Below are positions 13,501-64,000 of a stretch of 64,000 nucleotides of DNA, in pieces (positions within the stretch are counted from its first letter, which is position 1; each line of letters opens with the position of its first letter). Source of the stretch: Arenicola marina (lineage: Eukaryota; Annelida; Polychaeta; Arenicolidae). The position numbers and the translations under genes are program-made. The DNA is taken from NCBI GenBank assembly GCA_964019135.1, contig OZ025256.1, positions 4,051,249-4,115,248 of the forward strand. The letters are read 5' to 3'. A model generated the notes under the pieces. It had not been told where the DNA came from. It ran no database searches and was given only the letters and a program-made list of their open reading frames with translations.

Positions 13501-16500
13501 ACTCATCCTCCCATTTCCCGCCATTTACACCCCCCCCTCCCTCTCATCCCCTCCCCTCTGTTACCCCCATCCCCTTCCCACAATCTCCCTTCCTCATTGT
13601 TACCCATTTCCCACCCCACACCCTCAGCTCTCTTTCACCCCACTCCCCTTCCCACCCCAGCCCCCATCCCCATCATCGCAATCGACCCCCTTTTCCCCCG
13701 CACTCCCACCCAACGCCGCCCTACCCTGCCAGGCGCGGTTTCCCTGATCCCGGTGAGTGGGGTTCGTGGGTTGGGGGATAGGTTTGCCGCGGGCCAGCGG
13801 CCAGGCCCCCACCCGACCTCTAGGCCAGGTATCCACCTTCTCTAATGTATTCCACCACTCCGCGATCACCCCTATCGACGTAGCAAACAATGACCCTCCC
13901 TCCCCACCACTATATACCCCAACCCCCGCTCCAATCAACCAATCCCCCCCGAGCCTACCCTAGCCCCATCAAACCCAAACCCTGGTTTATGAGTAGCACG
14001 GCCACACCCGGCCACTCCCTCCCGTCCCCTCCACCCCCCCCCCCCCGTCCCCTCCAGCCCCCCCCCCACACGCCCCCGCCCCCTTCAGCAGGGGTAGACA
14101 GTAACGTGTAGATAGGGGCCAGAAGAGAGGCACCCGGTCCCATTCTCTCCCAGTACCTGGAACTGCCCCGGGATAGCAGCCACCGACGCCACGCCTTGGT
14201 CAGCATGAGGAATCGAATCTATAGGTTCATTGCATACAATATTGGATTTAATTGAAGAAACCCCGAACACGTGGAGGCAGGACTAGCATCACATTGAATG
14301 GAGAAGCCATTACCACAGCCTCTCGTGCTCTCCATGGGAACCTCCTCGACGGAGTAAGCGGGGTTCCTCGACTGAACGCCTCGAGGGTCTGACACAAGCC
14401 ATGCCAGCGGCCCCAGACACAACTGGACTATAATGTGAATGTGGATTATATTATTAAGAGACACATCGAACGGCTGAATATCCAGTATAGAGCGTGTCTT
14501 CGCAAGCTGATCTTCCAAGATATAAGCCGTAAAGCTCGTGGCCTGTGATGTGCGATGTACGATTAGGCACGAAACAAGCTTCGAACAATTATGATAATGG
14601 GTCATTCTTCCACGTTAGGGGGAACCAGTGTTTTAGCATAGCTCACGTATGACTCACGTTTACCCTTGACTACAATGCTTTCAGAACAATTCTCGGGTTC
14701 TAACATGGAAGATGGACCTAATAATGTAATCAAAACCGTTTTATCCCACATTATGACGCCCTGCTTGTAGCCAGCACTGTGACACGGGGTATAAGCTATA
14801 TACCGGAACATAATGGCTGAATCATACGATGCCACTGTAATGTTTTATCACGGATTTAGAAGTAGTTTGTGACTGGCCAGCTTTTATATGGGCACAGCAG
14901 ATATTCATCACTAGTGGATCCCGATCGGTGTGAATCCGGATCGGTATAAATCCGGATCGGTATAAATCCGAATCGGTGCAAATCCCAATCGGTGTAAACT
15001 CCGATCAGTGTGAATCCCGATGAGTATCGCCTTCCCGATTGGGGTGACGTCACCATGGATATCGGCGACGAGGTGCGCTTCCGGGTGAGTCCGGACGTGA
15101 TTGACGGCAGCGACACCTCGGGGCTGAAGCCCAGCATGTGGCGCTCCATCGGAGAGTCCTTCCCGGACCATCTGGATCAGACGGCGGACGCCACGCCCAG
15201 ATCCAGAATGCAGGCCGTGGTCAACAAACAGGGAATGATCGAGCTGGATCTCAGCGATCGGGATCTGCGCGAGATCCCCTCCGACGTCTACATTCTGCTG
15301 CGGATGGAAGTCCTGAAGGTCAATCACAACAACATCGTCACCATTCCCAGCCGGATATCCGGTTTACATAAGCTGCGCGTGCTGAATGCGCAGAAGAATC
15401 AGATCACTTACGTCAGCGATACGCTGGCGAACTGCATCCATCTGCAAGAGTTGGACTTGTCCGAGAACAAGATGAGCTTCATCCCGAGGTCCATTGGCGG
15501 GTTACGGGACTTGCGCGTCCTGAAGATGTCGCATAATCGTCTGGACACGATCCCGCATGAAGTCGGCGACATCGTCTCACTGAGGCAGCTCGAGCTGGCC
15601 CATAACAAGCTCTGGCACATGCCGGTTAACTACCAGAAGCTGCAGAACCTCAAGCTCCTGAGCCTGGCCAAGAACAACTTCGACCAGGTGCCCATCTGCG
15701 TGTGCCGCATGCGCAAGCTGGAGGCGCTGGATATTCATGGCAACCGCATCCAGCACCTGCCGAGTCAGATGGGCGATCTGAAGGATCTGAAGGAGATTTC
15801 CCTGGCCAGGAACCGCATAGAATGCTGGCCGGAAGTCCTGCTCAGCCTCAAGCAGCTCAACTCTCTGGATCTGTCCTTCAACAAACTGAAGGTCGTTCCG
15901 CCAGAGATCGGCAATCTAATCAAACTGCGCATGCTCATCGTCCAGGGCAACGCGCTGACGTCGCTTCCGGCGGGTTTGGATAAGCTGCACTATTTAAACG
16001 TGGCGGACAATAAGATCCAGAATTTCTCGGTGTCCCGGATGCGGCAGCTGCGCTACCTGAACGCCAGCGGTAACGGTCTGGAGAACATGCCGCTCGGGAT
16101 CTACAACCTGGCGCAGTTGGAGGTCATCAAGCTACACACCAACCGCATCTCCTACCTCTCCCAGGACGTCATCCTGCTCAGACACCTCAAGGTAAGGCCA
16201 CTGTGACGTCATCCTGCTCAGACACCTCAAGGTAAGGCCACTGTGACGTCATCCTGCTGTGGCGTCATCCTCCTCAGACACCTCAAGGTAAGGCCACTGT
16301 GACGTCATTCTCTTCAGGCACCTCAAGGTAAGGCCACTGTAGCGTCATCTTCCTCAGACACCTCAAGGTAAGGCCACTGTGGCGTCATCTTCCTCAGACA
16401 CCTCAAGGTAAGGCCACTGTGGCGTCATCTTCCTCAGACACCTCAATGTAACGCCACTGTGGCGTCATCTTCCTCAGACACCTCAAGGTAAGGCCACTGT

Positions 16501-19500: not shown

Positions 19501-22500
19501 TCTCCTACCCGCTGGTCAGCACCCCGGCGCCCTCCCCGCCCCGCAAGCCCAGGCGGAGGACCCCGCATAACCACCCCCAGCAGCACCCCACCACCGGCAG
19601 CCAGGCGGCACCCCGCCACCATTACCCCCGCCACCACAGCGACGACAACGCCCTGCTGACCTCCACCACCAACCTCTCCAGACCCTCGGACCGCAACAAC
19701 AACAACCACCCCCACCGCCACCGCCAGCGCGGGTTCGGCCCCGGGTCGAACCACCCCCGCCAATCAGCTCGGCCCCCGGACCTGCCGCTGGGGGAGGGGG
19801 AGGACGAGGAGGATGAGGAGGAGGAGGAGGAGGACGAGTACGATAACGACGAGACCAACTCGTACACCCGGGAGTGGGCGGGCGAGCGGCGCAACCGGCG
19901 GCGCAGCGGCAGCAGTAACGCCGTCACGGTCAACGAGACGGTCGGGGACGAGGTGTCCCTGGGCGAGCAGGACTTCGAGTACCAGCCCCTCAACATCCCG
20001 GACTCCAAGCTGATGAAGCTCTGCCAGGAGACCGAGGTGCTGCTCAACAAACAGCTGCTGCAACCGCTGCTCCACGGCAACTTCATCAACAGGGGCATCT
20101 TCAGGAAAAGGTAACGATCCCAACCGACTAAAACGTCATCATTTCGTTGGAAGTCAATCACGTAATATATAAACCAAACCATCAGTAATTATTGCCGTGG
20201 CGAAATCGATATACATGAACCGATATGAGTCGCATAACACCGTGTTAGTATTCATCATATCTGTCACTTCTCTGTATGAGATTGACGACCAGTCAAACCA
20301 CAGGATTTCGCCACGCCATACCGTCTGAATATGACGTCATCAGCAGCGCGTCATGACAAAATTGCAATGGGGAGATCGTTTTTGGCAAACATTTTAATTC
20401 ACTGACAAATGATTTGGATGTGATCTATTTAATACTAATATCTACGTTACTTGTATTTGTATTGACAACATTTGTTCGCCAGTATAAACGAAGGCGGCAC
20501 CCTCCGCACGCTGCACGGCATGATGGGAAATGGCACACTTCCGTCCGAGGCGGAAAACACCTCTTCCCATCATGCATCGCGCCCGCCGCCGGCCTCCACC
20601 GACCAGAGCGTCATCCACATGAGCAAAGACATCTTCCTCAAGCGGCCCAAGGAGTACCATGACAACGGGCTGCGGCGCATGCGCATGGACGTGTTTCGCG
20701 TGACCCCCGCGGGGGGGCGCTTCAAGTCCAGCATTGACCCCAACATCAGTCTCTACTTCCCGGCCAAGGCGGTGGACTTCCCCATCGCGGTCACCATGCA
20801 GGTCAGTATCATCTATATCGGTCCGGGTGAAGTCAAATTTTGAGCAACGCGTCAATAATATTGTGGAAATATATATAGACTATTGTAGAAATTGGTATCA
20901 AAAATCCTTACAGCGGAGCAAAATCGTATCCTTCATTCACTGATGCCCCGAACGGCACCGTGTGACGTCATCGCACCGTGTGACGTCATCGCACCCTGTG
21001 ACGTCACGACACCTTGCGATGTCATCGCACCGTGACGTCACGGCACCCTGTGACGTCCCCGCACCCTTTGACGTCACGCGTGTACCATCTCCCGGACCTA
21101 AATCACTCACACATCATAATAACACGGTTGCTGTTCCCTCCGCTAGGTGGAGCGCGTGAGCGCCGAGGCCCTGGCCGCCGCTCGGCGCGCGCTGCCGGCG
21201 CTGGACAACCTGCTGGCCGTGGGGGATATCGTCCACGTCAAGCAGAACAAAGAGGTGGACTTCAACGAGCAGGTGACGCTGACGGTGCCGTCGCCGCCGC
21301 TGACACAGCGGGGACGGCTCCACGTGCTGGCCTACAGGGAGGACAACACGTGCTCGCCCTCCACCGCCCAGTACAGGGTGCGCCAGGGCTACATCAGCCT
21401 GCAGACTTGGCACTTCTCAGGGTGAGTGGGGGTGGGGGGGGGGGGTGTCACATCAGCCAGCTGACCTGGGACTTCTCAGGGGTAGTGGGGCGGGGGTGGG
21501 GGGGTGGGGGTCACATCAGCTACATCAGCCGGCAGACCTGGCACTTCTCAGGGTGAGTGGGGGTGGGGGGGGGGTCACATCAGCCAGCTGACCTGGCACT
21601 TCTCGGGGTAGTGAGGCGGGGGGGGGGTCAAATCAGCTACATCAGCCGGCAGACCTGGCACTTCTCAGGGTGAGTGGGTGGGGGGATGTCACATCAGCCA
21701 GCTGACCTGGCACTTCTCAGGGTGAGTGGGTGGGGTGGGGGGGGGTCACATCAGCCAGCTGACCTGGCACTTCTCAGGGTGAGTGGGTGGGGGGGGGGGG
21801 GTCACATCAGCTACATCAGCCTGCAGACCTGGCACTTCTCAGGGTGAGTGGGTGGGGGGGGGTCACATCAGCTACATCAGCCAGCTGACCTGGCACTTCT
21901 CAGGGTGAGTGGGTGGGGTGGGGGGGGGGGTCACATCAGCTACATCAGCCAGCAGACCTGGCACTTCTCAGGGTGAGTGGGGGGGGGGGGGGTCACATCA
22001 GCTACATCAGCCAGCAGACCTGGCACTTCTCAGGGTGAGTGGGTGGGGCGGGGGGGGGTCACATCAGCTACATCAGCCAGCAGACCTGGCACTTCTCAGG
22101 GTGAGTGGGTGGGGTGTGGGGGGGTCACATCAGCTACATCAGCCGGCAGACCTGGCACTTCTCAGGGTGAGTGGGGGGGGGGGGTCACATCAGCTACATC
22201 AGCCTGCTGACCTGGCACTTCTCAGGGTGAGTGGGTGGGGTGGGGGGGGGGTCACATCAGCTACATCAGCCAGCAGACCTGGCACTTCTCAGGGTGAGTG
22301 GGGGGGGGGGGTCACATCAGCTACATCAGCCGGCAGACCTGGCACTTCTCAGGGTGAGTGGGTGGGGGGGGGGGTCACATCAGCTACATCAGCCAGCAGA
22401 CCTGGCACTTCTCAGGGTGAGTGGGTGGGGTGGGGGGGGGTCACATCAGCTACATCAGCCAGCAGACCTGGCACTTCTCAGGGTTAGTGGGGGTGGGGTG

Positions 22501-52500: not shown

Positions 52501-55500
52501 GCCCTTGATGCACTCCCCCGCCACGCCCTGTCACCTACCGATGCCCTTGATGCACTCCCCCGCCACGCCCTGTCACCTACCGATGCCCTTGATGCACTCC
52601 CCCGCCACGCCCTGTCACCTACCGATGTCCTTGATGCACTCCCCCGCCACGCCCTGTCACCTACCGATGCCCTTGATGCACTCCCCCGCCACGCCCTGTC
52701 ACCTACCGATGCCCTTGATGCACTCCCCCGCCACGCCCTGTCACCTACCGATGCCCTTGATGCACTCCCCCGCCACGCCCTGTCACCTACCGATGTCCTT
52801 GATGCACTCCCCCGCCACGCCCTGTCACCTACCGATGCCCTTGATGCACTCCCCCGCCACGCCCTGTCACCTACCGATGCCCTTGATGCACTCCCCCGCC
52901 ACGCCCTGTCACCTACCGATGCCCTTGATGCACTCCCCCGCCACGCCCTGTCACCTACCGATGCCCTTGATGCACTCCCCCGCCACGCCCTGTCACCTAC
53001 CGATGCCCTTGATGCACTCCCCCGCCACGCCCTGTCACCTACCGATGCCCTTGATGCACTCCCCCGCCACGCCCTGTCACCTACCGATGCCCTTGATGCA
53101 CTCCCCCGCCACGCCCTGTCACCTACCGATGCCTTTGATGCACTCCCCCGCCACGCCCTGTATGTCCTGGCCTTGCTGGATGACGCAGCTCTCGCCGTCC
53201 TTCTGGTAGGACACCTCGATGAGGGAGACTCGGGAGCTGGGCAGCACCTTGATGGGCACTTCCACGGCAGCCACCGCGCGGTATTGCTGGGGACAACACA
53301 CAACCACAGGGTTTCAATATATATACAGGTGTGCATAACATCAACATTTATATGAGTATATCACTAATATATATATGTGTGTATATCATCCATGTATATA
53401 TATATGTGTGTATATTATCAACGTATATATATAGGTGTGTATCACCAAAAAATAGATATGTATACCATTTATTGCTGGGGACAACGCCATACACTGAGGG
53501 GACAAAGAACGACGCGCTTTCATAATATTATGTATTTTTTGTATATATATATATTTTTTTATTTACAAACGAAAACAGTCCATTTCCCACAGACATGTAT
53601 GATTTCACATTTAAGGTATAAGTACAGATTGTTGCATAGTTTACACACGGAAGCCTGCACGTGCCACGTTGTTGTTAAGTGACTCGTGCAAAATGGTTGT
53701 TACGCGACTCGTGCCACGTGGCTGTTACGTGACTCGTGCCACGTGGTAGCTACATAACTCGTGCCACGTGGTTGCTACGTGACTCGTGCCACGTGGTTGC
53801 CATGTGACTCGTGCCACGTGGTTGCTACGTGACTTGTGCCACGTGGTTGCTACGTGACTCGTGCCACGTGGTTGCTACGTGACTCGTGCTACGTGGTTGC
53901 AACGTGACTCGTGCCACGTGGGTTTTATCCACGTTGTTATCACGTGGCATGCGCAACACTCACGTGTCACGCAGGTAGCCGTGCGATAAGCTATAGGGCG
54001 GTGTAGGGAGGTTAGATGTGTTGGACTCACCGGGAGGTCGACCTTGGCGGTGACCACGGTTTCCTCCTCCACCTTGCTCAGCGGAAGGGGGCGGAGGGGG
54101 GGAGGGGGAGGGGGAGGGGGAGGGGGTAGATGTGTTGGACTCACCGGGAGGTCGACCTTGGCGGTGACCATGGTTTCCTCCTCCACCTTGCTCAGCGTGA
54201 GGGGGCTCCCGGTGAGCACGCCCTGCCCGGTCCTGGAACAGTCCACGGAGAGGGGATGGGGCACCCCCGGAACCCCCGCCACGTGCACGCTGGCCACCGC
54301 CTTGGGGTAGGCCGTGATGTTACCCGCCTCGTCCCGCACCTCCACGCTTAAGTCCAGGAAACCGCCGTTCTCAATCTGCACCGACTCGGGCCTCACCACC
54401 AGCGTGTGGGGTGGACCTGTTGGGGAGGGGAAGGACGGGGAAGAGAGGCAAGGGAGGGGGGAGGGGGGAAGAGCGGGACAAGAAGGGATAGGAGAGTGGG
54501 GCGGAGAGAGGTTGGGGTAAGAAGAGGGGTGTCGGTAGGAGGGGTGGAGAGAGACAAAGTAGCAAGATTGATTACTGTGGGATATAAAGTGTTGGTGATT
54601 AGGCCCCAAAATACTTTACTGGAGCCAGAAACCTCTCCGTGACAATAAACGGTGAGACTTGCCCCAGTTAGTGGCCGTGGGAGGTATTTATGTTGCTTAG
54701 GTCGCTGTGGTATACGACCAGTGACGCTTTCAATAACCCCAGAAAATTTATTAATTTTTTAATGTAGAAGTAATATTGATCGATTCATTACCTGTTACCT
54801 CTTAACGGCACTATGAGAGCGTTGATACTACTTTATAGATCTCGAAAGATCTACTTTAAAAAATACGGAAACCAACAATAGGTCACATTTTGCTCTTATC
54901 CATGTTTTAATTTTCGTTCTCATGGGGTCTTTAAGGAATAGAGATACGCCGGTGTGCCCGTAACTTCCCGTTACCTGGCAGCATTCGGATCTTGAGTGTC
55001 TGCGAGTCCTCCCCCAGGCCGTCCACAGTGACCACCAAGCTGAAGCTCTGAAGGCACAGACACACCCAGCATGTTAACGTACGCCAAGTTTTTTTTTTGA
55101 TTTTTTGATTTGATTAGGGTTTAACGGCTCTGTCAGCCTGTAAGGAGGCTATATCGTGCCATACTGGTTCTTCAATTAAAATAACTGAGCAGTTAATACT
55201 AAAACCCTGAAAATTAATACATGTGATATTGAAGATAAAACAATTGCAAAAATGATAAAGGGTCAAGTAGATATGAATAAAACCATGATTGCAGTCAATG
55301 TGGAAACGATCAAAAGATATAAAACCCTGAAGATATCAGGTATTATGATAAAGAAAAATGTCTAAAAACGTACGCCAAGACCCGCACATCAAATCACCCC
55401 ACAACACCACTGGTACTCCAGCGTGCGAGTACACAGTATATCGTTTTAATGATTTTCCCAATGAAAATATCAACCAATAAATCTAAAAACAACCCCCCCG

Positions 55501-58500
55501 CCCACCTCCAAAGAAAATAGAATTCAATCCATGAAATAAACAATAAAAATCATATTTTGATGAACCTGGCAGAGAAGCCTTCCAAAGACTTTGCTGGGCT
55601 GCATTGAGCGGCATAGGCACGGTAGAGGGACAGAGAGAGATAAATGTGTGACTGACCTTTCCGCCGTTAGAAGGCACACTGCCCAAGGCCACGATGGTCT
55701 TGATCAGTAGACTGTTGCCCACGACCTCGACACTCTTGTATGACAGCTCCAAGCCGCTGAGGTAGCAAGAAACAAACACGTCAGGAATGTTCACAGAGAA
55801 ATATCCTAAGCTGGGAAAAATGCTCAGTTGCTAAAAGGTCAATATGGCTATATTATAATGTATTAATATATTATAGCCGATTTTATTTCATGAAGAGAAA
55901 TGATGGCATCAGAAGAGGATACACTTGGAAGCATCATGTTTACTTGGAGGCGATTTAATAACATATGATGGAGCTGAACGTTATGAAACGGAAAGGTTAT
56001 ATATCTATTTGTTGTTGTTGTTGATAATTGAACTATTCAGAGTAAGAGAAAAATCTGCAGCGAATGCATGTTAACACAGATGTAGCTCCTATCATCAGGA
56101 AGCAGACACACGAACAACCCCGGGGACAGAGCCACGCTGTTGTTCTGGGGCGGTAGTCATAATCCACACGTAGCCTAAGCATGACATTTCCAGAAGTCAT
56201 TTCACAGCTACCGACGCATGGACTCGGCTGTTTCACGTAGAAACGTAGCAATAGATACGGCAGATACAATCAGCCAATGTATAATCGGCCTGCCAAATTT
56301 CATTTCTACGTGTGGTTTAAGAATACCGTCCCTGGAACACCCCCCCCCCCCCCCCACCCCCTTCCCCCACTCACCTAGCCTCCAGCTTGGGCGTGAGCGA
56401 CCCGGAAGGCTTGGTGAGGTGTCCGAACTCGTCCTGGAACTCGAGCGGGATGTTGAAGGGGACACCGATCCGGAAGGGACCCTCCAGCATCCCGACAGAG
56501 AACTTCTCGGGTTCAGCCTCCGTGACGCTGAAGCGGATCCGGTACGACGGCAGGTCCTTGCCGGCGAACGTGGAGGCGCCGCTCTCGTTGAGCACGCACT
56601 GCAGCTGTAGCGTGTAGCTGCCCAGGTTCTTCACGTTCTCTGTCAGAAGTTAAGAAGACAACATGGGCGATAATGGGGGTATGTTTGTACCGCAGCTGTA
56701 GCGTGTAGCTGCCCAGGTTCTTCACGTTCTCTGTCACGAGTTAAGAGGACAACATGGGCGATAATGGGGGTATGTTTGCACGGCAGCTGTAGCGTGTAGC
56801 TGCCCAGGTTCTTCACGTTCTCTGTCAGAAGTAAAGAGGACAACATGGGCGATAATGGGGGTATGTTTGCACTGCAGCTGTAGCGTGTAGCTGCCCAGGT
56901 TCTTCACGTTCTCTGTCAGAAGTAAAGAGGACAACATGGGCGATAATGGGGGTACGTTTGCACTGCAGCTGTAGCGTGTAGCTGCCCAGGTTCTTCACGT
57001 TCTCTGTCAGAAGTTAAGAAGACAACATGGGCGATAATGGGGGTATGTTTGCACGGCAGCTGTAGCGTGTAGCTGCCCAGGTTCTTCACGTTCTCTGGCA
57101 GGAGTGAAGAGGACAACAAGGGTGATAATGGGGGTATGTTTGCACTGCAGCTGTAGCGTGTAGCTGCCCAGGTTCTACACGTTCTCTGTCAGAAGTTAAG
57201 AGGAAAACATGGGCGATAATGGGGGTATGTTTGCAATGCAGCTGTAGCGTGTAGCTGCCCAGATTCTTCACGTTCTCTGGCGGGATTTAAGAGGACAGTA
57301 TGGGCGATAATGGGGGTATGTTTGCAATGCAGCTGTAGCGTGTAGCTGCCCAGGTTCTTCACGTTCTCTGTCAGGATTTAAGAGGAAAACATGGGCGATA
57401 ATGGGGGTATGTTTGCACTGCAGCTGTAGCGTGTAGCTGCACAGGTTCTTCACGTTCTCTGTCAGAAGTTAAGAGGACAAGATGGGCAATAATTGGGGTA
57501 TGTTTGCACTGCAGCTGTAGCGTGTAGCTGTCCAGGTTCTTCACGTTCTCTGGCAGGAGTTAAGAGGACAGTATGGGCGATAATGGGTTCTGTAGCGATA
57601 ATGCAGCTGTAGCGTGTAGCTGCCCCGGTTCTTCACGTTCTCTGGCAGGGTTAAGAGGGAAACATGGGCGATAATGAGGGTATGTTTGCACTGCAGCTGT
57701 AGCGTGTAGCTGCCCAGGTTCTTCACGTTCTCTGGCAGGAGTTAAAAGGACAACATGGGCGATAATGGGGGTATGTTTGCACTGCAGCTGTAGCGGGTAG
57801 CTGTCCAGGTTCTTCACGTTCTCTGTCACGAGTTAAGAGGACAGTATGGGCGATAATGGGGGCATGTTTGCACTGCAGCTGTAGCGTGTAGCTGCCCAGG
57901 TTCTTCACGTTTTCTATCAGGAGTTAAGTAGGTTGGTTGGTTGTATAACCAGGATGCTTTAACCATATCGCGTCCAAGGGAGAAGGAAGGGAAGAGCAGA
58001 GCCATCTCCCCGGGGTAACCCTCTACTCTTCGCGAAGAAGGGCATAAGATATGTATCGTGTGACTAACCCCCCCAAAAAAACAATTGCCTATATGTTCAA
58101 ACACAAGTTCTCGGTTTGGTAAGAAGCAGCTTCGGATTCATTGCCTTAATTTCTTGTTTTAAAATGACACCAAATAAACCTTGGTCGAATGGAACGGGGG
58201 GAGGGGGGTAAAACATTTAGCATCCTTTTGTGACTCGACCAATAGACACAACGGGTAGATATACGGACAAAATATCGCTAATTGGCACCAGCTGGTTTAT
58301 AGCATTCTTGGTATGACAAACACAACTTCGGGGAGAATTCACACCTACCCATCTTCCGGAACCAGTAGGGCCACGACTTGCCGTGCTGACTGATGTGATG
58401 TATCGGAATGACATCGCCATGCGGCGCTGCATAAAACACAACGAACACGTGGTGACTTGACTTCAAGATGGCCGCCGTACACCCACACATTACCACAGCC

Positions 58501-61500
58501 TCTCAAATTGTCAAATTTGACTATTATTCCATTGTTGCTCACGTATTGCTCAAATAAATAATACACCACACAAAATATAACTACTTTATTTCATAGACGA
58601 TAGCATTGGACGCAATGCTGATCGGTACTTGCGATGATTTTTTTTTTTTTTATACGGCAAAAAGGTAAACTAATCAATGCATGTAAAACAATTTATATTT
58701 AATAGCATACATACACATATAAATATAGTTTTAAATCAATGGCGAAAAGGTTAATAGCATGTGTGACTGTCCTTGACTTACAGTGCCAGATGACCTTGAG
58801 TTCGACAAGGAGCTTCCTCTGCTGGTGGGCACCCGGAAGTTTGCTGATCGACTCCTGTTTCCGGTTTACAATCTCCACTCTCATGTCGCCTAGATTAGGA
58901 GGGAGAAGCCTTGTCATGGTTATGACAACACACTATTTCATACAGTATTATCCACATCTGTATCATATCAGCCATCTGTACTGAAGGAGCCTTCGTGGCC
59001 GAGGGATAGAACACTCCACTGCAGATCATTGGGTCCCTGGTTTAAAACCTGGTCGTGGACGATCTCATCTGGGGTATATTTCTTTCATATTATTCATTGT
59101 CCCGTAGGTGGCTCAGCCTACTTTAGCCCCCGTTTGTGCGATATAGACCTAATACAACAATCCTTTCCTTTTTGTTCGCCTGTTTTTCCAGTCACGGCCA
59201 CTGACCTATGGTTTTCCCGGCCGCCCGTTTCTCTCCGTTGACGACTTCCATCCCTGATGGCCACGTGACATTCAGTTGATCCGGTAACCTAAAAAAAAAG
59301 GAAAATATCTTATATAATTTTTTCTTTCAATATAGTATATAGTATACCGGTGATTAACGAAACTCGGTAACCCGAGCGACAACACAAAGTGCCAAAACTT
59401 TCGCGATTTTAAAGCGCTGCATCGTTTGCTTTCGTGTGAGTGGATAGCCGTTTTCTTTTTATGAGCTTTTAGATAAGACGCTTTGGTTATATATAATACA
59501 ATGTATTTAGTACTATCCCTGATCTCGTACAGACATTTACAATCACTCATATTATTTAAACCGCCAGAGCTAAACTACCGTAGAACCGCCGTTGCGTGTT
59601 CATGCGGTGTGCATGTGCAGGAGTCGGAAGCCCGCCATTTGGCTATTTATAGAAACGCTTTAGCACGCAACGGCGGTTCTACGGTAATTTAGCTCTGGCG
59701 GTTTAAAGAATATGAGTGATTGTAAATGTCTGTACGAGATCAGGGATAGTACTAAATACATTGTACCGGCGGGCGGCCTCCCCGTGATCACAAACCACTG
59801 CGCATTAGAACGCAACGGCGGTTCTAGTGCACTCCGGCGGGCGGCCTCCCCGTGATCACAAACCACGGCGCATTACAACGCAACGGCAGTTTAAAGGACA
59901 TGGAACCCAATTGAGTTCGACAAACGTTTATATTATCAAATACAACGTTGTGCAACTAACGTCTTCCATATCAGCAGTAATTTAATACAAATATGATTTT
60001 ATACCACAATTATATCCATGTATATGAACTGATACTTGCAAACATAAGTACTCAGAAAACACAGCTGAAAACACTCCCTCAATTTGCCCACAGTCGGCAA
60101 GCTTGGTTTTTGCCTGTCTGCTTCCCCTTGATAAGAATAATTGTCCTACTTACTTGCCCTCCTCCTCCTTTATAGAGGCTACTTACTTGCCCTCCTCATC
60201 CTCTATAGAGGCTACTTACTTGCCCTCCTCCTCCTCTATACAAGCCAGATACTTGCCCTCCTCCTCCTCTATGCAGGCTACTTACTTGCCCTCCTCCTCC
60301 TCTATACAGGCTACTTACTTGCCCTCCTCCTCCTCTATACAGGCTACTTACTTGCCCTCCTCCGCTATACAGGCTACTTATTTGCCCTCCTCCTCCTCTA
60401 TACAGGCTACTTACTTGCCCTCCTCCTCCTCTATGCAGGCTACTTACTGGCCCTCCTCCTCCTCTATACAGGCTACTTACTTGCCCTCCTCCTCTATACA
60501 GGCTCCTTACTTGCCCTCCTCCTCCTCTATAGAGGCTACTTACTTGCCCTCCTCCTCCTCTATAGAGGCTACTTACTTGCCCTCCTCCTCCTCTATACAG
60601 GCTACTTACTTGCCCTCCTCCTCTATACAGGCTACTTACTTGCCCTCCTCCTCCTCTATAAAGGCTACTTACTTGCCCTCCTCCTCCTCTATAGAGGCTA
60701 CTTACTTGCCCTCCTCCTCCTCTATACAGGCTACTTACTTGCCCTCCTCCTCCTCTATACAGGCTACCTATTTGCCCTCCTCCTCCTCTATACAGGCTAC
60801 TTACTTGCCCTCTTCCTCCTCTATACAGGCTACTTACTTGCCCGCCTCTCCTCTATACAGGCTACTTACTTGCCCTCCTCCTCCTCTATAGAGACTACTT
60901 ACTTGCCCTCCTCCTCTATACAGGCTACTTACTTGCCCTCCTTATCTATACAGACTACTTACTTGCCCTCCTCCTCCTCTATACAGGCTACTTAATTGCC
61001 CTCCTCATCTATACAGACTACTTACTTGCCCTCCTCCTCCTCTATACAGGCTACTTACTTGCCCTCCTCCTCCTCTATACAGGCTACTTACTTGCCTTCC
61101 TCCTCCTCCTCTATAGAGGCCACTTACTTGCCCTCCTCCTCCTCTATATAGTCTACTTACTTGCCCTCCTCCTCCTCTATACAGGCTACTTAATTGCCCT
61201 CCTCATCTATACAGACTACTTACTTGCCCTCCTCCTCCTCTATACAGGCTACTTACTTGCCCTCCTCCTCCTCTATAGAGGCTACATACTTGCCCTCCTC
61301 CTCCTCTATATAGTCTACTTACTTGCCCTCCTCCTCCTCTATACAGGCTACTTACTTGCCCTCCTCCTCCTCTATAGAGGCAACTTACTTGCCCTACTCC
61401 TCTATACAGGCTACTTACTTGCCCTCCTCCTCCTCTATAGAGGCAACTTACTTGCCCTCCTCCTCCTCTATCCAGGCTACTTACTTGCCCTCCTCCTCCT

Positions 61501-63741
61501 CTATAGAGGCAACTTACTTGCCCTCCCCCTCTGTACAGGCTACTTACTTGCCCTACTCTTCCTCTATGCAGGCTACTTACTTGCCCTCCTCCTCCTCTAT
61601 ACAGGCCAGATACTTGCCCTCCTCCTCCTCTATACAGGCTACTTACTTGCCCTCCTCCTCTATCCAGGCTACTTACTTGCCCTCCTCCTCCTCTATCCAG
61701 GCTACTTACTTGCCCTCCTCCTCCTCTATAGAGGCAACTTACTTGCCCTCCTCCTCCTCCTCTATACAGGCTACATACTTGCCCTCCTCCTCCTCTATAC
61801 AGCCTACTTACTTGCCCTCCTCCTCTCTATAGAGGCAACTTACTTGCCCTACTCCTCTATACAGGCTACTTACTTGCCCTCCTCCTCCTCTATAAAGGCA
61901 ACTTACTTGCCCTCCTCCTCCTCTATCCAGGCTACTTACTTGCCCTTCTCCTCCTCTATAGAGGCAACTTACTTGCCCTCCTCCTCTGTACAGGCTACTT
62001 ACTTGCCCTACTCTTCCTCTATGCAGGCTACTTACTTGCCCTCCTCCTCCTCTATACAGGCCAGATACTTGCCCTCCTCCTCCTCTATACAGGCTACTTA
62101 CTTGCCCTCCTCCTCCTCTATCCAGGCTACTTACTTGCCCTCCTCCTCCTCTATAGAGGCAACTTACTTGCCCTCCTCCTCTGTACAGGCTACTTACTTG
62201 CCCTCCTCCTCCTCTATAGAGGCTACTTATTTGCCCTCCTCCTCCTCTATACAGGCCAGATCCTTGCCCTCCTCCTCCTCTTTACAGGCTACTTACTTGC
62301 CCTCCTCCTCCTCTATCCAGGCTACTTACTTGCCCTCCTCCTCCTCTATCCAGGCTACTTACTTGCCCTCCTCCTCCTCTATCCAGGCTACTTACTTGCC
62401 CTCCTCCTCCTCTATAGAGGCAACTTACTTGCCCTCCTCCTCTGTACAGGCTACTTACTTGCCCTACTCTTCCTCTATACAGGCTACTTACTTGCCCTCC
62501 TCCTCCTCTATCCAGGCTACTTACTTGCCCTCCTCCTCCTCTATAGAGGCAACTTACTTGCCCTCCTCCTCTATCCAGGCTACTTACTTGCCCTCCTCCT
62601 CCTCTATAGAGGCTACTTATTTGCCCTCCTCCTCCTCTATACAGGCCAGATCCTTGCCCTCCTCCTCCTCTTTACAGGCTACTTACTTGCCCTCCTCCTC
62701 CTCTATCCAGGCTACTTACTTGCCCTCCTCCTCCTCTATCCAGGCTACTTACTTGCCCTCCTCCTCCTCTATCCAGGCTACTTACTTGCCCTCCTCCTCC
62801 TCTATAGAGGCAACTTACTTGCCCTCCTCCTCTGTACAGGCTACTTACTTGCCCTACTCTTCCTCTATACAGGCTACTTACTTGCCCTCCTCCTCCTCTA
62901 GACAGGCCAGATACTTGCCCTCCTCCTCCTCTATACAGGCTACTTACTTGCCCTCCTCCTCCTCTATCCAGGCTACTTACTTGCCCTCCTCCTCCTCTAT
63001 AGAGGCAACTTACTTGCCCTCCTCCTCTGTACAGGCTACTTACTTGCCCTCCTCCTCCTCTATACAGGCAACTTACTTGCCCTCCTCCTCTGTACAGGCT
63101 ACTTACTTGCCCTCCTCCTCCTCTATAGAGGCTACTTACTTGCCCTCCTCCTCCTCTATACAGGCCAGATACTTGCCCTCCTCCTCCTCTATACAGGCTA
63201 CTTACTTGCCCTCCTCCTCCTCTATAGAGGCAACTTACTTGCCCTCCTCCTCCTCTATCCAGGCTACTTACTTGCCCTCCTCCTCCTCTATAGAGGCTAC
63301 TTACTTGCCCTCCTCCTCCTCTATACAGGCCAGATACTTGCCCTCCTCCTCCTCTATACAGGCCAGATACTTGCCCTCCTCCTCCTCTATACAGGCTACT
63401 TACTTGCCCTCCTCCTCCTCTATAGAGGCTACTTACTTGCCCTCCTCCTCCTCTATACAGGCCAGATACTTGCCCTCCTCCTCCTCTATACAGGCCAGAT
63501 ACTTGCCCTCCTCCTCCTCTATACAGGCTACTTACTTGCCCTCCTCCTCCTCTATAGAGGCTACTTACTTGCCCTCCTCCTCCTCTATACAGGCCAGATA
63601 CTTGCCCTCCTCCTCCTCTATACAGGCTACTTACTTGCCCTCCTCCTCCTCTATATAGCGCTTGACGACATCTTCATTCGCTAATCTGTCCAGTTTCGTC
63701 AGAGGCACGAATTTGACGTCGTCGTACAGGGCTCGGGGTTC
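562..63741 (-). CDS. SMCHD1: SMCHD1 orthologue, 5'-partial, interrupted by assembly gap
   Basis: SMCHD1 is a non-canonical SMC protein (GHKL ATPase plus hinge) that acts on chromatin in gene silencing in vertebrates. Exons in transcript order: 63741-63635, 59288-59206, 58889-58782, 58426-58349, 56639-56375, 55756-55657, 55047-54975, 54416-54145, 53286-53127, 34704-34637, 33825-33680, 33081-32952, 32387-32307, 31440-31282, 30762-30637, 30254-30175, 28088-27931, 27550-27388, 26830-26746, 23965-23934 (cut by gap), then 8499-8380, 8065-7980, 7345-7223, 3093-2903, 2462-2356, 2122-2052, 1913-1742, 1575-1417, 1004-562. Every junction is AG...GT and the phases chain without a break on each side of the gap. 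The protein aligns in order with human SMCHD1 as I remember it, from just after the ATPase module to the C-terminus. The ATPase exons must lie beyond 64000, and about 110 residues fall in the 200-N gap. The gene is packed with tandem arrays, many of them starting at its own splice sites. Confidence 0.95.
1742..3093 (-). CDS. SMCHD1: SMCHD1 SMC-type hinge domain exons
   Basis: Four exons (3093-2903, 2462-2356, 2122-2052, 1913-1742) encode the most conserved part of the gene, the hinge used for homodimerisation and nucleic-acid binding. Key matches to human SMCHD1 are [86 protein letters not shown] and [12 protein letters not shown]. This block alone identifies the gene. The domain looks intact, with no frame break and all conserved motifs present. 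The intron between 7223 and 3093 is almost completely an 11-bp minisatellite, and the acceptor at 3094-3095 lies about 20 bases from the array edge. Confidence 0.97.
2550..2715 (-). mobile_element. degenerate SINE, family 2
   Basis: This shares the diagnostic body 'aggctaaattgggccaa' and a degraded tRNA-like head (acctgttgatatacagctcag...cttaccaagata) with the copies at 7565-7745 and 30270-30466. It lies in an SMCHD1 intron. Confidence 0.6.
3111..7150. repeat. 11-bp minisatellite, about 365 copies
   Basis: Units alternate between 'gtacaggtagt', 'gtacgggtagt', 'gtacagttagt' and 'gtatacgggta'-type variants for about 4.0 kb. They fill the SMCHD1 intron between exons 7345-7223 and 3093-2903. The unit carries no exon sequence. 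On the minus (sense) strand it reads as CACTACCTGTA and contains no AG, so it offers no decoy 3' splice sites. Confidence 0.98.
7223..8499 (-). CDS. SMCHD1: SMCHD1 coiled-coil exons before the hinge
   Basis: Three exons (8499-8380, 8065-7980, 7345-7223) encode the coiled coil before the hinge: [52 protein letters not shown], and [16 protein letters not shown] followed by TPRRMCGL and HTEVLGK. This matches human DVKKQQQMAAL..., YKSLFEASQQLLNEMK and VLGKIAHLAQI in order. For the second exon two acceptors are possible. I chose the one at 8066-8067, which gives [10 protein letters not shown], because it aligns better with the human VEEARLKEAQ. The alternative, seven codons shorter, keeps the same frame. 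The donor at 7979 abuts a 56-bp minisatellite within about six bases. Confidence 0.93.
7395..7560. repeat. G-run minisatellite, about 5 copies
   Basis: The unit is 'cacatacaggcaaactgca' joined by G runs of variable length. It lies in the SMCHD1 intron upstream of the exon 7345-7223. Confidence 0.9.
7565..7745 (-). mobile_element. SINE family 2 copy
   Basis: The tail (aaatgttgggcttttaggccgc) and body (aggctaagtttggc) are followed by a degraded tRNA-like head (gatctgcagctcatcctgcttacc). It has the same layout as the copy at 30270-30466, and its 3' end faces low coordinates. Confidence 0.65.
7775..7978. repeat. 56-bp minisatellite abutting an SMCHD1 donor
   Basis: There are four to five copies of a unit containing 'cagtcgacacttcggtacaa' and 'atggacgtaac'. 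The last copy touches the 5' splice site of exon 8065-7980: the donor GTAAGTCACGTCC runs straight into the unit's TTACGTCC. Confidence 0.9.
8800..9080 (-). mobile_element. tRNA-derived SINE, family 1, internally inverted
   Basis: The tRNA-like head (minus strand: ATAGCTCAGTGGGTTAGCG, with B-box-like GGTCCGAGCC) and middle are in normal order. The tail module (8820-8930) is reversed relative to the intact copies at 9589-9846 and 33385-33645. Its end 'ataaccaaccaac' abuts 'ctttgcgaagaaggac'. Confidence 0.8.
9530..9910 (-). mobile_element. SINE family 2 copy interrupted by a SINE
   Basis: A family 2 tail (gttttaggccgcttttgtgcacat) is split by a family 1 SINE at 9589-9846 and resumes at 9857 (ccttgggattggatgaaa...). 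The interruption is flanked by a 10-bp target duplication. Confidence 0.75.
9589..9846 (-). mobile_element. tRNA-derived SINE, family 1, full copy
   Basis: The minus strand begins GGCGCGATAGCTCAGTGGGC (A-box-like) with B-box GGTTCGAGCCC, then a body and a tail ending in 'tatacaaccaac'. It is flanked by perfect 10-bp direct repeats 'cgggacaatg' at 9579-9588 and 9847-9856. Confidence 0.9.
10560..12480. other. intronic/intergenic region, no gene recognised
   Basis: GC-rich stretches (10560-10860, 11400-12480) flank an AT-rich block (10970-11290) with two diverged copies of a module containing 'ttttactggtt' and 'aaaagaatggat'. I find neither an SMCHD1 exon nor an obvious upstream exon of the LRR-ZU5 gene. 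Several open frames on both strands are low-complexity and unsupported. Confidence 0.5.
12500..12640 (+). mobile_element. SINE family 1 fragment
   Basis: A diverged tail module matches the family 1 body in the orientation opposite to 9589-9846 (cgcgatatgaccaac, ggttaaagcgtcc). The tRNA head is absent. Confidence 0.6.
12745..13400. repeat. 23-bp minisatellite, about 27 copies
   Basis: The unit is about 'taatgacggcctggtaccct' plus 'gta', with alternation of GGTACC and GGTGCC and some 18-20-bp shortened units. It lies in the long SMCHD1 intron about 1.7 kb upstream of the LRR-ZU5 start. It touches no recognised exon. Confidence 0.95.
13490..14110. repeat. CT-rich low-complexity region
   Basis: C/T-rich plus-strand DNA with long C runs and repeated 'cccatttccc' and 'ccccttcccac' blocks. 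No coding exon is supported. Confidence 0.7.
14916..15054 (+). promoter_or_regulatory. 16-bp repeat array with TATA motifs upstream of the LRR-ZU5 start
   Basis: About seven copies of a 16-bp unit (aaatccggatcggtat and variants) end shortly before the ATG at 15055. Two copies contain TATAAAT (14945 and 14961), roughly 95-110 bases upstream of the start codon. This could be the core promoter or part of a 5' UTR. No transcript evidence is available. The last units grade into the leader just before the Kozak sequence. Confidence 0.4.
15055..21421 (+). CDS. LRR-ZU5 protein, PIDD1-like, 3'-partial
   Basis: Exons: 15055-16191, 17759-18430, 19347-20110, 20483-20801, 21147-21421 (1,055 codons plus two bases), all GT-AG and in phase. 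The ATG has a strong Kozak context (gtcaccATGg). Residues 50-415 hold about 15 leucine-rich repeats of 23 residues (LxxLxLxxNxLxxLPxxI). The first intron splits one repeat, and joining it gives the perfect [17 protein letters not shown] long disordered linker follows: polybasic [17 protein letters not shown], His/Pro-rich runs, then an acidic run. From about residue 928 a ZU5-type domain begins (VTPAGGRF..., SLYFPAKAV) and ends TWHFSG. HFS is the self-cleavage motif known in PIDD1-type ZU5-UPA proteins. A UPA and death domain would be expected next but would fall in or beyond the gap. The linker is far longer and the LRR count higher than in PIDD1, so I give no symbol. Confidence 0.85.
16167..17660. 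repeat. 40-bp array duplicating LRR exon edge plus 5' splice site
   Basis: About 36 units each contain 'ctcagacacctcaag' followed by GTAAGG, which is the end of exon 15055-16191 and its donor, plus 'ccactgtggcgtcatc'. Some units carry a changed donor (caatGTAACG). Copies are near-identical close to the exon and increasingly diverged from about 17340 onward. Reading past the first donor gives K-V-R-P-L-stop. Many units contain TGACGTCA. Confidence 0.97.
18720..19340. repeat. degenerate CTGAT-rich repeat ahead of a 3' splice site
   Basis: Loose repeats of 'ctgatctgatccctcgat' and 'cctaaat' run up to the acceptor of exon 19347-20110 (ctgaccccag). CTGAT and CTGAC resemble metazoan branch-point consensus. 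Confidence 0.75.
20955..21080. repeat. about seven CRE-like 'gacgtca' repeats
   Basis: An 18-bp unit (gcaccgtgtgacgtcatc) is repeated with variation just upstream of exon 21147-21421. Most units keep TGACGTCA, the consensus for ATF/CREB-type factors. Confidence 0.8.
21390..23733. repeat. array duplicating the ZU5 HFS exon edge plus 5' splice site
   Basis: More than 30 units of about 60-75 bp contain 'cagacctggcacttctcagg' followed by GTGAGT, a G run of variable length, and 'tcacatcagctacatcagc'. The exonic part encodes Y-I-S-x-Q-T-W-H-F-S. In gene frame the codon after S-G is TGA. Some units carry altered donors (GGTTAGT, GGGTAGT). The array runs into the N gap, so its true length is unknown. 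Confidence 0.97.
23734..23933. other. assembly gap (200 N)
   Basis: The gap is exactly 200 N, a size often used for unknown length. It begins inside the LRR-ZU5 donor-edge array and ends inside an SMCHD1 exon, so it hides the 3' part of the plus-strand gene and about 110 SMCHD1 residues. SMCHD1 exons on both sides are in the right order and strand, which supports the join. Confidence 0.99.
23934..23965 (-). CDS. SMCHD1: SMCHD1 exon fragment cut by assembly gap
   Basis: Directly beside the N run, the minus strand reads 'gcgtag' followed by 32 bases encoding [10 protein letters not shown] in phase 0. That is the phase left by the preceding exon ending HSISSEA at 26746. The joined [14 protein letters not shown] matches the human stretch NSEQVIVEVLPNQP in position and character. 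The rest of this exon, and the following exons up to the one at 8499, are not in the window sequence. The exon is short, so this rests on phase, acceptor and context rather than on long homology. Confidence 0.75.
23960..24057. repeat. 44-bp repeat duplicating an SMCHD1 3' splice site
   Basis: About 2.3 copies of a unit starting 'gatatctacgcaacata' lie here. On the minus strand each includes GCGTAG-ATATC, the acceptor of the exon at 23965. The copies lie directly upstream of the exon in transcript order. Confidence 0.8.
24058..26745. repeat. 23-bp array next to an SMCHD1 donor, about 115 copies
   Basis: The unit is 'aaggcggagagagttattaa' plus 'tac', with 'cac' and 'tgc' variants. On the minus strand the exon edge GCG|GTATGCAACTCTCTTCGCC is a recognisable diverged unit. 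The far-end copies at 24096-24121 still read GCGGTATGA. The array occupies nearly the whole intron between 26746 and 23965, and longer blocks within it are repeated. Confidence 0.95.
26746..34704 (-). CDS. SMCHD1: SMCHD1 exons 10-19 of window (repeated Ig-like domains)
   Basis: Ten exons encode successive Ig-like beta-sandwich segments of the SMCHD1 middle region. Recognisable stretches are [17 protein letters not shown] (34704-34637), [10 protein letters not shown] (33825-33680), the conserved [16 protein letters not shown] turn (33081-32952), GFNIHGVKF (31440-31282), [13 protein letters not shown] (30762-30637), [10 protein letters not shown] (30254-30175), then [17 protein letters not shown] (28088-27931). 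The exon 27550-27388 ends VFTF at a donor whose edge is tandemly repeated. Exon 26830-26746 ends HSISSEA. Introns here hold a TTAA-flanked DNA element, SINEs, a duplicated AT-rich block and several minisatellites. All exon borders are GT-AG and keep frame. Confidence 0.93.
27005..27450. repeat. 96-bp array duplicating exon edge plus donor, 5 copies
   Basis: Each unit (32 codons) contains the minus-strand end of exon 27550-27388, encoding [14 protein letters not shown] and VFTF, then the donor AG|GTCGGTGGGG. Reading past the first donor in frame meets TAG after about eight codons. The farthest copy is the most diverged. Confidence 0.95.
28090..28240. repeat. short 'cctcggacgacacacaaaca' repeat, 4 copies
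   Basis: A unit of about 34 bp lies in the intron just upstream of the acceptor of exon 28088-27931. It has no exon content. Confidence 0.75.
28330..29060. repeat. 69-bp array derived from a mobile-like sequence
   Basis: About eight units contain 'aacggcggttctacggtagt' and 'ggccggtttcccggggcct'. The left part (28330-28490) carries sequence closely related to the foldback element at 59498-59764 (accgcatgaacacgcaacgg and gtgctaaac...aatagcc). This suggests that a copy of that element seeded the array. Confidence 0.85.
29083..30140. mobile_element. non-autonomous TTAA-flanked DNA transposon
   Basis: Perfect 18-bp terminal inverted repeats (ggtaagctacccataata at 29087-29104, its complement at 30119-30136) are each bordered by TTAA. 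The element is 1,050 bp, AT-rich and without a credible transposase frame. A block containing 'acctcggtaaacatcg' occurs twice near the left end. A TTAA target is typical of piggyBac-type elements, but the family is not proven. Confidence 0.85.
30270..30466 (-). mobile_element. SINE family 2, full-length-like
   Basis: The minus strand starts CCTCCTTGGTATAGTGGTTA (tRNA-like A box) with B box GGTTCGAATCC. It continues through the body (ggcccaatttagcct on this strand) to a tail 'aacatttgattttt'. Confidence 0.85.
30480..30601 (-). mobile_element. second SINE family 2 copy, head degraded
   Basis: This lies directly beside the previous copy. It has 'tcaaatgttggatgctttacg', 'aggctaaac' and a degraded tRNA head (gacctgttgatcagcagctcag). 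Confidence 0.6.
31490..31605. repeat. 24-bp minisatellite, about 5 copies
   Basis: The unit is 'tgcgtatctgcttgaaaccg' plus 'ycag', starting about 50 bases upstream of the acceptor of exon 31440-31282. It has no exon content. Confidence 0.85.
32405..32775. repeat. duplicated AT-rich block, 2 copies of about 180 bp
   Basis: Both halves contain 'gagtacatgcgtgaataaat', 'gaacgttaggg', a TA-rich run, and 'actttatatgtaa'. They are diverged by substitutions and small indels. The block lies in an SMCHD1 intron. Confidence 0.85.
33385..33645 (-). mobile_element. tRNA-derived SINE, family 1
   Basis: Same structure as 9589-9846: minus-strand GATAGTTCAGTGGGTTAGAG head, degraded B box, tail 'tatacaaccaac'. 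It lies in the intron before exon 33081-32952. No clear target duplication was seen. Confidence 0.85.
33895..33929. other. perfect 15-bp inverted repeat (hairpin)
   Basis: The arms 'ccttgcatgaacact' and 'agtgttcatgcaagg' are separated by 5 bases (aaacg), giving a strong potential stem-loop in an SMCHD1 intron. It may be the end of a small unidentified element, because B-box-like 'ggttcgaatcc' follows at about 34026. Confidence 0.8.
34840..34978 (-). mobile_element. tRNA-derived SINE, degenerate
   Basis: The minus strand starts CCTCCTTAGCTCCGTTGCTA, with a B-box-like GGATCAAACCC. An internal palindrome (gagtggctggttccagccactc) follows. It sits just outside the 18-kb array. Confidence 0.65.
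35045..53160. repeat. 18-kb, 42-bp array duplicating an SMCHD1 exon edge and 5' splice site
   Basis: About 430 units. On the minus strand each reads GGCGTGGCGGGGGAGTGC, ATCAAGGGCATCG, then donor GTAGGTGACAG: the last 31 bases of exon 53286-53127 plus 11 intron bases. The far end (35045) retains a different exon edge, AAGGACATCA|GTAAGG, probably the ancestral donor. Variants change one or two bases. A few units are 1 or 2 bases short. In gene frame the third codon after GGCATC is TGA. The unit is 14 codons long, so other frames stay open for kilobases by arithmetic alone. Confidence 0.98.
36960..49560. repeat. higher-order duplication of about 6.29 kb within the 42-bp array
   Basis: The order of variant units from about 36960 to 43253 recurs 6,293 bases later. 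Short units at 37253, 37420 and 40019 reappear at 43546, 43713 and 46312, always at the same offset. 6,293 equals 150 x 42 minus 7, the sum of the small deletions in the block. The second copy contains extra units around 48400-49170, including a nested 9-unit repeat. Confidence 0.9.
53127..63741 (-). CDS. SMCHD1: SMCHD1 exons 1-9 of window (post-ATPase, Ig-like region)
   Basis: Nine exons encode the stretch after the ATPase module. The first ends in an acidic run (YIEEEEG) that continues across the intron into [12 protein letters not shown]. Family matches include [11 protein letters not shown] (exon 58426-58349), [13 protein letters not shown] and [14 protein letters not shown] (56639-56375), and the Ig-like block starting [19 protein letters not shown] (54416-54145). 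The ninth exon (53286-53127) encodes [16 protein letters not shown] and ends VAGECIKGI. Three of these exons have edges that expanded into tandem arrays: the donor of the first (63635), the acceptor of the fifth (56639) and the donor of the ninth (53127). The donor of the eighth is duplicated once. Exon sizes and phases were read directly from the sequence. Homology is from memory of the human protein, and no alignment was run. Confidence 0.93.
53330..53450. repeat. TA/TG-rich short repeat
   Basis: Three to four loose copies of 'tatatatatgtgtgtatat' with short linkers lie upstream of the acceptor of exon 53286-53127. Confidence 0.75.
53680..53935. repeat. 25-bp array of CACGTG motifs
   Basis: About ten units of 'gactcgtgccacgtggttgc' plus 'tacgt'. 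Each carries CCACGTGG (palindromic E-box) and TACGTGAC. The array lies in the SMCHD1 intron between exons 54416-54145 and 53286-53127. Confidence 0.9.
54018..54200. repeat. two-copy duplication of an SMCHD1 exon edge and donor
   Basis: The end of exon 54416-54145 (encoding [17 protein letters not shown] and the donor GTGAGTCC) recurs at 54080-54031, with one Met-to-Val change. The two donors are 114 bases apart, and the interval is open in the gene frame. Confidence 0.93.
56580..57925. repeat. 91-bp array duplicating an SMCHD1 3' splice site, about 14 copies
   Basis: On the minus strand each unit has an acceptor (CTGACAG or variant), then exon start AGAACGTGAAGAACCTGG encoding [13 protein letters not shown], then intron sequence (AAACATACCCCCATTATCGC). 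The copy at 56639 continues into the real exon. Since 91 is not a multiple of 3, use of an upstream acceptor would shift the frame. Confidence 0.96.
57931..58060 (-). mobile_element. SINE family 1 fragment
   Basis: A tail module (gttggttgtataaccaggatg, gggagaaggaaggg, ccccggggtaacc) without the tRNA head lies directly beside the 91-bp array. Confidence 0.75.
58982..59110 (+). mobile_element. tRNA-related SINE head
   Basis: The plus strand has 'ccttcgtggccgagggatag' (A-box-like) and 'tggtttaaaacctgg' (degenerate B box) about 40 bases later. The length and lack of a clean cloverleaf argue for a SINE rather than a tRNA gene. Confidence 0.55.
59498..59764. mobile_element. foldback (MITE-like) element
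   Basis: Two 101-bp inverted arms (59498-59598 and 59664-59764) differ at about two positions and are separated by a 65-base spacer. The outer ends are 'acaatgtatttagtac'. No clear target duplication was seen. The inner arm end (aacggcggttctacgg) is shared with the array at 28330-29060. Confidence 0.9.
59766..59890. repeat. tandem duplication next to the foldback element
   Basis: Two copies of a unit of about 66 bp containing 'ggcgggcggcctccccgtga' and 'acgcaacggcggttc', related to the foldback element's inner sequence. Confidence 0.8.
60150..63660. repeat. 33-bp array duplicating an SMCHD1 exon edge and 5' splice site, about 105 copies
   Basis: On the minus strand each unit reads GAGGAGGAGGAGGGCAA, GTAAGTAGCC, then TGTATA or similar. 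This is the end of exon 63741-63635 (EEEEGK) plus its donor. In frame, the codon after GGC-AAG is TAA, so reading past the first donor stops at once. Units of 30 and 36 bp also occur through GAG gain or loss. Confidence 0.97.
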
Positions 63742-64000
63742 CTGGAAGCGATCAGGTACAGCTGTTAGGATGTCAGCATTCCATTTTTCCCCATTTTTAA
63801 TTAGCTTTTTAACCACGAGCGTTCACTACTACGTTCTATATTTTAGTGTTTCAGAATATACACAGCGCATATTGCAAAGACATTAAATAATTATATTAAT
63901 TAATTAATTAATGGACCAGAAGACGAGTTATATTGAGTGTCACAAGGAAGCTCAAATTTACTTTAATTATGGGTATTAACTGGTTGCATGTCTAACAGTC
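63742..64000. other. SMCHD1 intron, right end of window
   Basis: AT-rich intronic sequence upstream of the first recognised exon, including an ATTA-type run (63886-63911). The preceding SMCHD1 exons (ATPase module) are outside the window. Confidence 0.7.

Follow-up and report, generated by a model that had tools for sequence, protein, structure and literature searches.

Minisatellite arrays across splice junctions in two neighbouring genes of Arenicola marina

In a 64,000-nucleotide stretch of the Arenicola marina assembly (contig OZ025256.1; hereafter the window), seven tandem arrays run across splice junctions of two neighbouring genes, each repeating an exon edge together with its splice site. 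On sequence grounds, these arrays are most likely a dense cluster of the 'mirages' described in amphioxus, and we consider it probable that they are ordinary minisatellites that arose from GC-rich exon flanks and are tolerated since their extra copies stay intronic. About one junction in nine in the window (7/65) bears a crossing array, a density that is high but not clearly above that given by chance, base composition and selection.

Two genes and the arrays at their junctions

The window holds an SMCHD1-like gene on the minus strand and a gene with leucine-rich repeats (LRR gene) on the plus strand:

23934..63761, minus strand: SMCHD1-like gene, exons E1-E20; 20-exon chain, 830 codons without a stop
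565..8499, minus strand: SMCHD1-like gene, exons E21-E29 with the SMC hinge, from 8.5 kb down to 0.6 kb
15055..21421, plus strand: LRR gene, exons X1-X5; ATG at 15055, 1,055 codons without a stop, 3' part outside the window

The C-terminal part of the minus-strand gene is an SMCHD1-type hinge (solved hinge 6n64, E = 7.3e-85; Pfam SMC_hinge, 3.5e-10), and a second search against a solved SMCHD1 hinge gave E = 1.3e-77, in keeping with an animal gene; a sequence search of the middle part of this protein against solved structures found no relative. The LRR gene has five visible exons and N-terminal leucine-rich repeats (LRR_8, 9.4e-38). Between E1-E20 and E21-E29 lie a 200-N gap and the plus-strand LRR gene, and we infer that both chains belong to a single SMCHD1-like gene. 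The gap, of exactly 200 N (23734-23933), stands at the end of the array at X5 and cuts the LRR gene; SMCHD1-like exons may be absent there, and the sequence may be misjoined or incomplete at this point. Junctions were positioned by hand and then checked by reading frame, which is open across the modelled junctions of E1-E20 and X1-X5 when the exon-proximal copy is used. An alternative X chain with X3 one base shorter contained eight stops and was rejected for the stop-free version. A single reader assessed both exon positions and arrays, and the loci are few.

The arrays that cross a junction are as follows:

16165..17667 (merged), plus strand: 40-bp array, about 37 full units, X1 donor (junction 16191/16192), 27 exonic bases; from TRF and unit parsing
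21387..23733, plus strand: variable, G-rich array of ~62 bp, 38 full units, X5 donor (21421/21422), 35 exonic bases
26988..27448, minus strand: 96-bp array, 4.8 copies, E18 donor (first intron base 27387), 61 exonic bases; from TRF
35034..53161, minus strand: 42-bp array, 432 copies over 18.1 kb, E9 donor (first intron base 53126), 35 exonic bases; from TRF
54006..54207, minus strand: 114-bp duplication, two copies with a C-rich spacer, E8 donor (54144), 63 exonic bases; duplicated stretch 54120-54207
56596..57928, minus strand: 91-bp array, 14.6 copies, E5 acceptor (first exon base 56639), 44 exonic bases; from TRF
60146..63655, minus strand: 33-bp array, 108 copies, E1 donor (first intron base 63634), 21 exonic bases; from TRF

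All seven had been listed in a first-pass annotation as repeating an exon edge plus splice site, and all seven do span a junction, at six donors (X1, X5, E18, E9, E8 and E1) and one acceptor (E5), with 21-63 exonic bases, units of 33-114 bp and unit sequences that look mutually unrelated. That annotation had the arrays begin exactly at the exon border; their starts instead lie inside the exon and the arrays run across the border. The arrays it placed at 35045 and 60150 are real, but these positions are their far intronic ends, with the junctions lying at 53126 and 63634. For X5, the TRF row (21496-23730) starts 74 bp inside the intron, unit alignment extended the start to 21387, and the array runs into the 200-N gap. 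The E8 duplication has no TRF row as such and was detected by lag scan and BLAST (91.8%).

Two weak cases adjoin the last exons of the E1-E20 chain:

23961..24057, minus strand: 44-bp array, 2.2 copies, containing the E20 acceptor TAG and 5 exonic bases; from TRF
24130..26745, minus strand: 23-bp array, 115 copies, adjoining the E19 donor (26745), 0 exonic bases

Both had been proposed as likely further examples, at 23960 and 24058; the first holds weakly, while the second copies no exonic sequence. TRF ends the E19 array at 26739, within the intron and 6 bp from the donor; a loose match with two gaps suggests that the first unit may start at the donor GT itself.

Of the 19 loci tested, 12 do not cross a junction, and among TRF loci no junction-crossing array was found in E21-E29 (565..8499). 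Three arrays end just short of a splice site and hold no copy of it:

7776-7972: array ending 7 bp short
3113-7158: array ending 19 bp short
18955-19330: array ending 16 bp short

Among two-copy duplications in gene bodies (n = 5), one crosses a junction (E8).

In the X1 array, units diverge more the farther they lie from the exon (Spearman 0.58; circular-shift p = 0.027). Trends were also seen in E18 (0.97, six units including partial ones), in E9 (0.14) and in the neighbour difference of E5, and there was none in the X5, E19 and E1 arrays. Under circular shifts the six arrays other than X1 give p values of 0.14 to 0.68 for growth from the exon side. We do not claim such polarity.

Other repeats were also observed in the window. 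The palindrome TGACGTCA is common to three separate arrays (16165-17667, 20952-21076 and 29322-29387) and occurs 26 times in the window, where 0.76 matches would be expected; 21 of these occurrences lie within those three arrays. An interspersed family of up to ~255 bp, with aligned pieces 80-96% alike, has these copies:

8825-9083
9589-9845
12546-12640
33393-33647
57964-58035

ARAGORN found no tRNA gene, and an Rfam scan was also negative. Lastly, an intronic stretch of ~270 bp (59497-59765) aligns with its reverse complement at 85.7% and is possibly a hairpin or small element.

Array placement compared with chance

From 26 merged TRF loci we used 19 minisatellite loci in gene bodies, dropping one 4-bp and one 6-bp locus, three outside gene bodies (12777, 14017 and 14918) and two within coding exons (17854-17906 and 19793-19843). 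In the null model each array, collapsed to a single unit, was placed at random in introns or across one junction; a second, GC-matched null restricted placement to sites with GC within 0.08. The collapsed territory comprises 21 kb and 65 junctions.

The first-pass annotation had held that random placement could not explain so many border matches, a view that these nulls do not bear out. Crossing was seen at 7 of 19 loci, compared with 3.2 expected under the uniform null (p = 0.03) and 5.1 under the GC-matched null (p = 0.21); three to five crossings are expected already because 65 junctions fall in only 21 kb of collapsed sequence. Nine loci lie within 7 bp of a junction (uniform: 3.7 expected, p = 0.005; GC-matched: 5.7 expected, p = 0.07). 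For a distance of 75 bp the count is 16 of 19 (uniform: 8.6, p = 0.0009; GC-matched: 9.9, p = 0.003), and a separate run of the uniform null agreed closely. Adding the five two-copy duplications gave 8 of 24 crossing (5.3 expected, p = 0.13; GC-matched: 7.9, p = 0.57) and 18 within 75 bp (12.1, p = 0.01; GC-matched: 13.9, p = 0.06). For the minus-strand gene alone, 5 of 15 cross (2.05 expected, p = 0.04), and with TRF ends only, so that X5 is not extended, 6 cross with at least 5 exonic bases (2.7 expected, p = 0.04). The crossing excess thus depends on the null chosen and is suggestive. Crowding near exon ends is sturdier, yet not immune, being weaker when two-copy duplications are included. 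The GC-matched null may itself over-correct, since including an exon edge is what makes such a unit GC-rich.

These counts bear in both directions on an origin as ordinary minisatellites filtered by selection. An effect of base composition is evident, as crossing lies near expectation with GC matching (7 versus 5.1). Arrays that copy no splice site crowd junctions too, 9 of 12 intron-only arrays lying within 75 bp of one (4.1 expected, p = 0.004). Against this origin stand the two-fold crossing excess under the uniform null (p = 0.03), which is stronger at ≤7 bp, and the 75-bp crowding, which outlasts GC matching (19 arrays, p = 0.003) and for which a selective filter alone is insufficient. 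The two TRF loci inside coding exons also count against it.

The same excesses at ≤7 bp and ≤75 bp under the uniform null would favour duplication aimed at junctions, through breaks at sites of co-transcriptional splicing or at R-loops, or through repair templated by uncut pre-mRNA. We regard this as possible but unlikely: the clear cases do comprise six donors and one acceptor, and the E9, E1 and X5 arrays are G-rich on the sense strand, but crossing loses significance under GC matching and not all arrays share the G-skew, which is reversed on the sense strand in those at 24130 and 3113. With sense-strand skew inconsistent among arrays, the R-loop model was set aside. It is doubtful, in particular, that a mutational process preferentially duplicates junctions, above all donors, via transcription- or splicing-linked DNA damage and so feeds minisatellite growth at exon edges. 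Were junctions indeed the target, DNA duplication would be tied to transcription or splicing and would offer a route to new introns and exons.

Re-copying of a splicing intermediate, which the first-pass annotation had suggested, fits the units poorly. It expects donor units that end at the exon end, whereas all six donor arrays hold the exon end joined to the intron start. Such re-copying is unlikely because the first splicing step would cut the exon from the GT, and the two are joined in six of the seven units; the source is therefore DNA or uncut pre-mRNA. The joined exon and GT also count against those forms of junction-aimed duplication that would start from cut intermediates. Break repair at transcribed junctions, the other process suggested in that annotation, may or may not be involved.

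Fate of the copied splice sites

Use of a later donor leads to an in-frame stop at six of the seven array-bearing donors. The stop falls inside the first unit at E1 (+2), X5 (+2), E9 (+6), X1 (+13) and E18 (+20), and in the third unit at E19 (+49); these copies must therefore be spliced out with the intron. Early stops are also common at array-free donors (for example E5, E11 and X3, each at +2), so that a stop after a later donor is a consequence and not a signature of the arrays. The exception is E8, with its stop at +268: splicing at the second donor, 114 bp on, would keep the frame open and lengthen the product by 38 codons.

The copied GT or AG showed no excess conservation in the six arrays analysed: in five of them 61-67% of unit positions vary as little or less, and in the 4.8-copy E18 array 92% do. 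This lack of special conservation fits silent copies. Exonic positions are less variable than intronic ones in the E5 array (p = 0.002) and likewise in X5, where we attribute the difference to a putative effect of an intronic G-run; in neither array is the lower exonic variability proof of use. Functional copies, whether decoy donors bound by U1 snRNP or a reserve of alternative sites, are accordingly improbable in our judgement: the in-frame 38-codon extension through the second E8 copy and a published model of intron gain from mirages speak for them, but the unremarkable conservation of the copied GT and AG and the stops behind later donors at six of seven sites speak against.

An assembly artefact, at least in copy number, seems very improbable. 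Within the 42-bp array, a 5,330-bp stretch (36880-42209) appears a second time 6,293 bp farther along, 99.96% identical, and may reflect either a recent duplication or an artefact, and the 200-N gap at the end of the X5 array points the same way. However, units differ within arrays, nine loci with different units are affected, and similar repeats in amphioxus PGBD5 are reported to be backed by re-sequencing (PMC3902484).

We therefore return to ordinary minisatellites as the probable origin. They would be born by local tandem duplication of DNA, through slippage or break repair, mostly in GC-rich sequence at or near exon ends, and would grow and homogenise via unequal exchange or conversion. 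A duplication containing a whole splice site would be tolerated if the exon-adjacent copy still splices properly and the others are discarded with the intron, and a unit with a whole donor would keep a good donor at the exon edge whatever the copy number after it. Duplications entirely within exons would mostly be lost to selection, and what would remain are intronic and junction-spanning arrays, known in lancelets as 'mirages'. We infer correct splicing and neutrality of the arrays. Acceptor arrays are fewer (one clear and one weak, versus six clear and one weak at donors) and, small as these numbers are, may have been purged by selection if a short repeat adds AGs between branch point and exon.

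Even as ordinary minisatellites, the arrays provide a natural test of donor choice among hundreds of near-equal copies and of the evolution of an exon edge inside a homogenising array, and 18 kb grown from one donor is a warning to annotators and assemblers.

Comparison with known systems

The statement in the first-pass annotation that boundary-overlapping minisatellites occur in amphioxus proved correct. Passages of the published reports describe 'mirages' as tandem duplications of minisatellite type, with a unit that straddles an exon-intron boundary, in Adh3, the globins BflGb6 and BflGb9, PGBD5 and troponin C, with units of 10-160 bp and RT-PCR that suggests regular splicing. The globin and PGBD5 papers credit the name to a 2002 Adh report. 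In PGBD5, 60- and 108-bp repeats at splice sites have re-sequencing support, and troponin C is named in the same paper (PMC3902484).

According to these passages, the likeness extends to a unit that spans the boundary with its splice signal, to both donors and acceptors and to copies left in the intron, as in all seven arrays here and, weakly, in two more. It also extends to an exon beside the array that keeps its frame with the exon-proximal copy, here across the stop-free E1-E20 and X1-X5. Copy numbers differ: the amphioxus passages give few per array (3 or 6 units in BflGb6, one duplicate in BflGb9, 2 to 7 in PGBD5), whereas the arrays here reach 432 copies, one of them spanning 18 kb. The window also concentrates nine cases, seven clear and two weak, in a pair of adjacent genes.

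Intron gain by tandem genomic duplication at AG/GT proto-splice sites, as mentioned in the globin passages, likewise involves tandem duplication that includes splice signals, but no new intron appears in the modelled frame here and the copies extend an existing one. Ordinary intronic minisatellites and VNTRs share the unit size and the variation between units, whereas the unit here includes an exon edge. Passages of a huntingtin paper mention tandem repeats, and those of a VCBP paper mention tandem repeats and, within VCBP3 introns, whole or partial exons together with splice sites; neither set of passages describes an array of the junction-crossing form. The literature matches listed, which cover few subscription journals, include no genome-wide comparison of arrays with splice sites. 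Overall, the kind of array is largely known. The window goes further than the published mirage passages in its copy numbers, in a test against a null that makes the junction excess less striking than it first seems, and in how densely two adjacent genes are affected.
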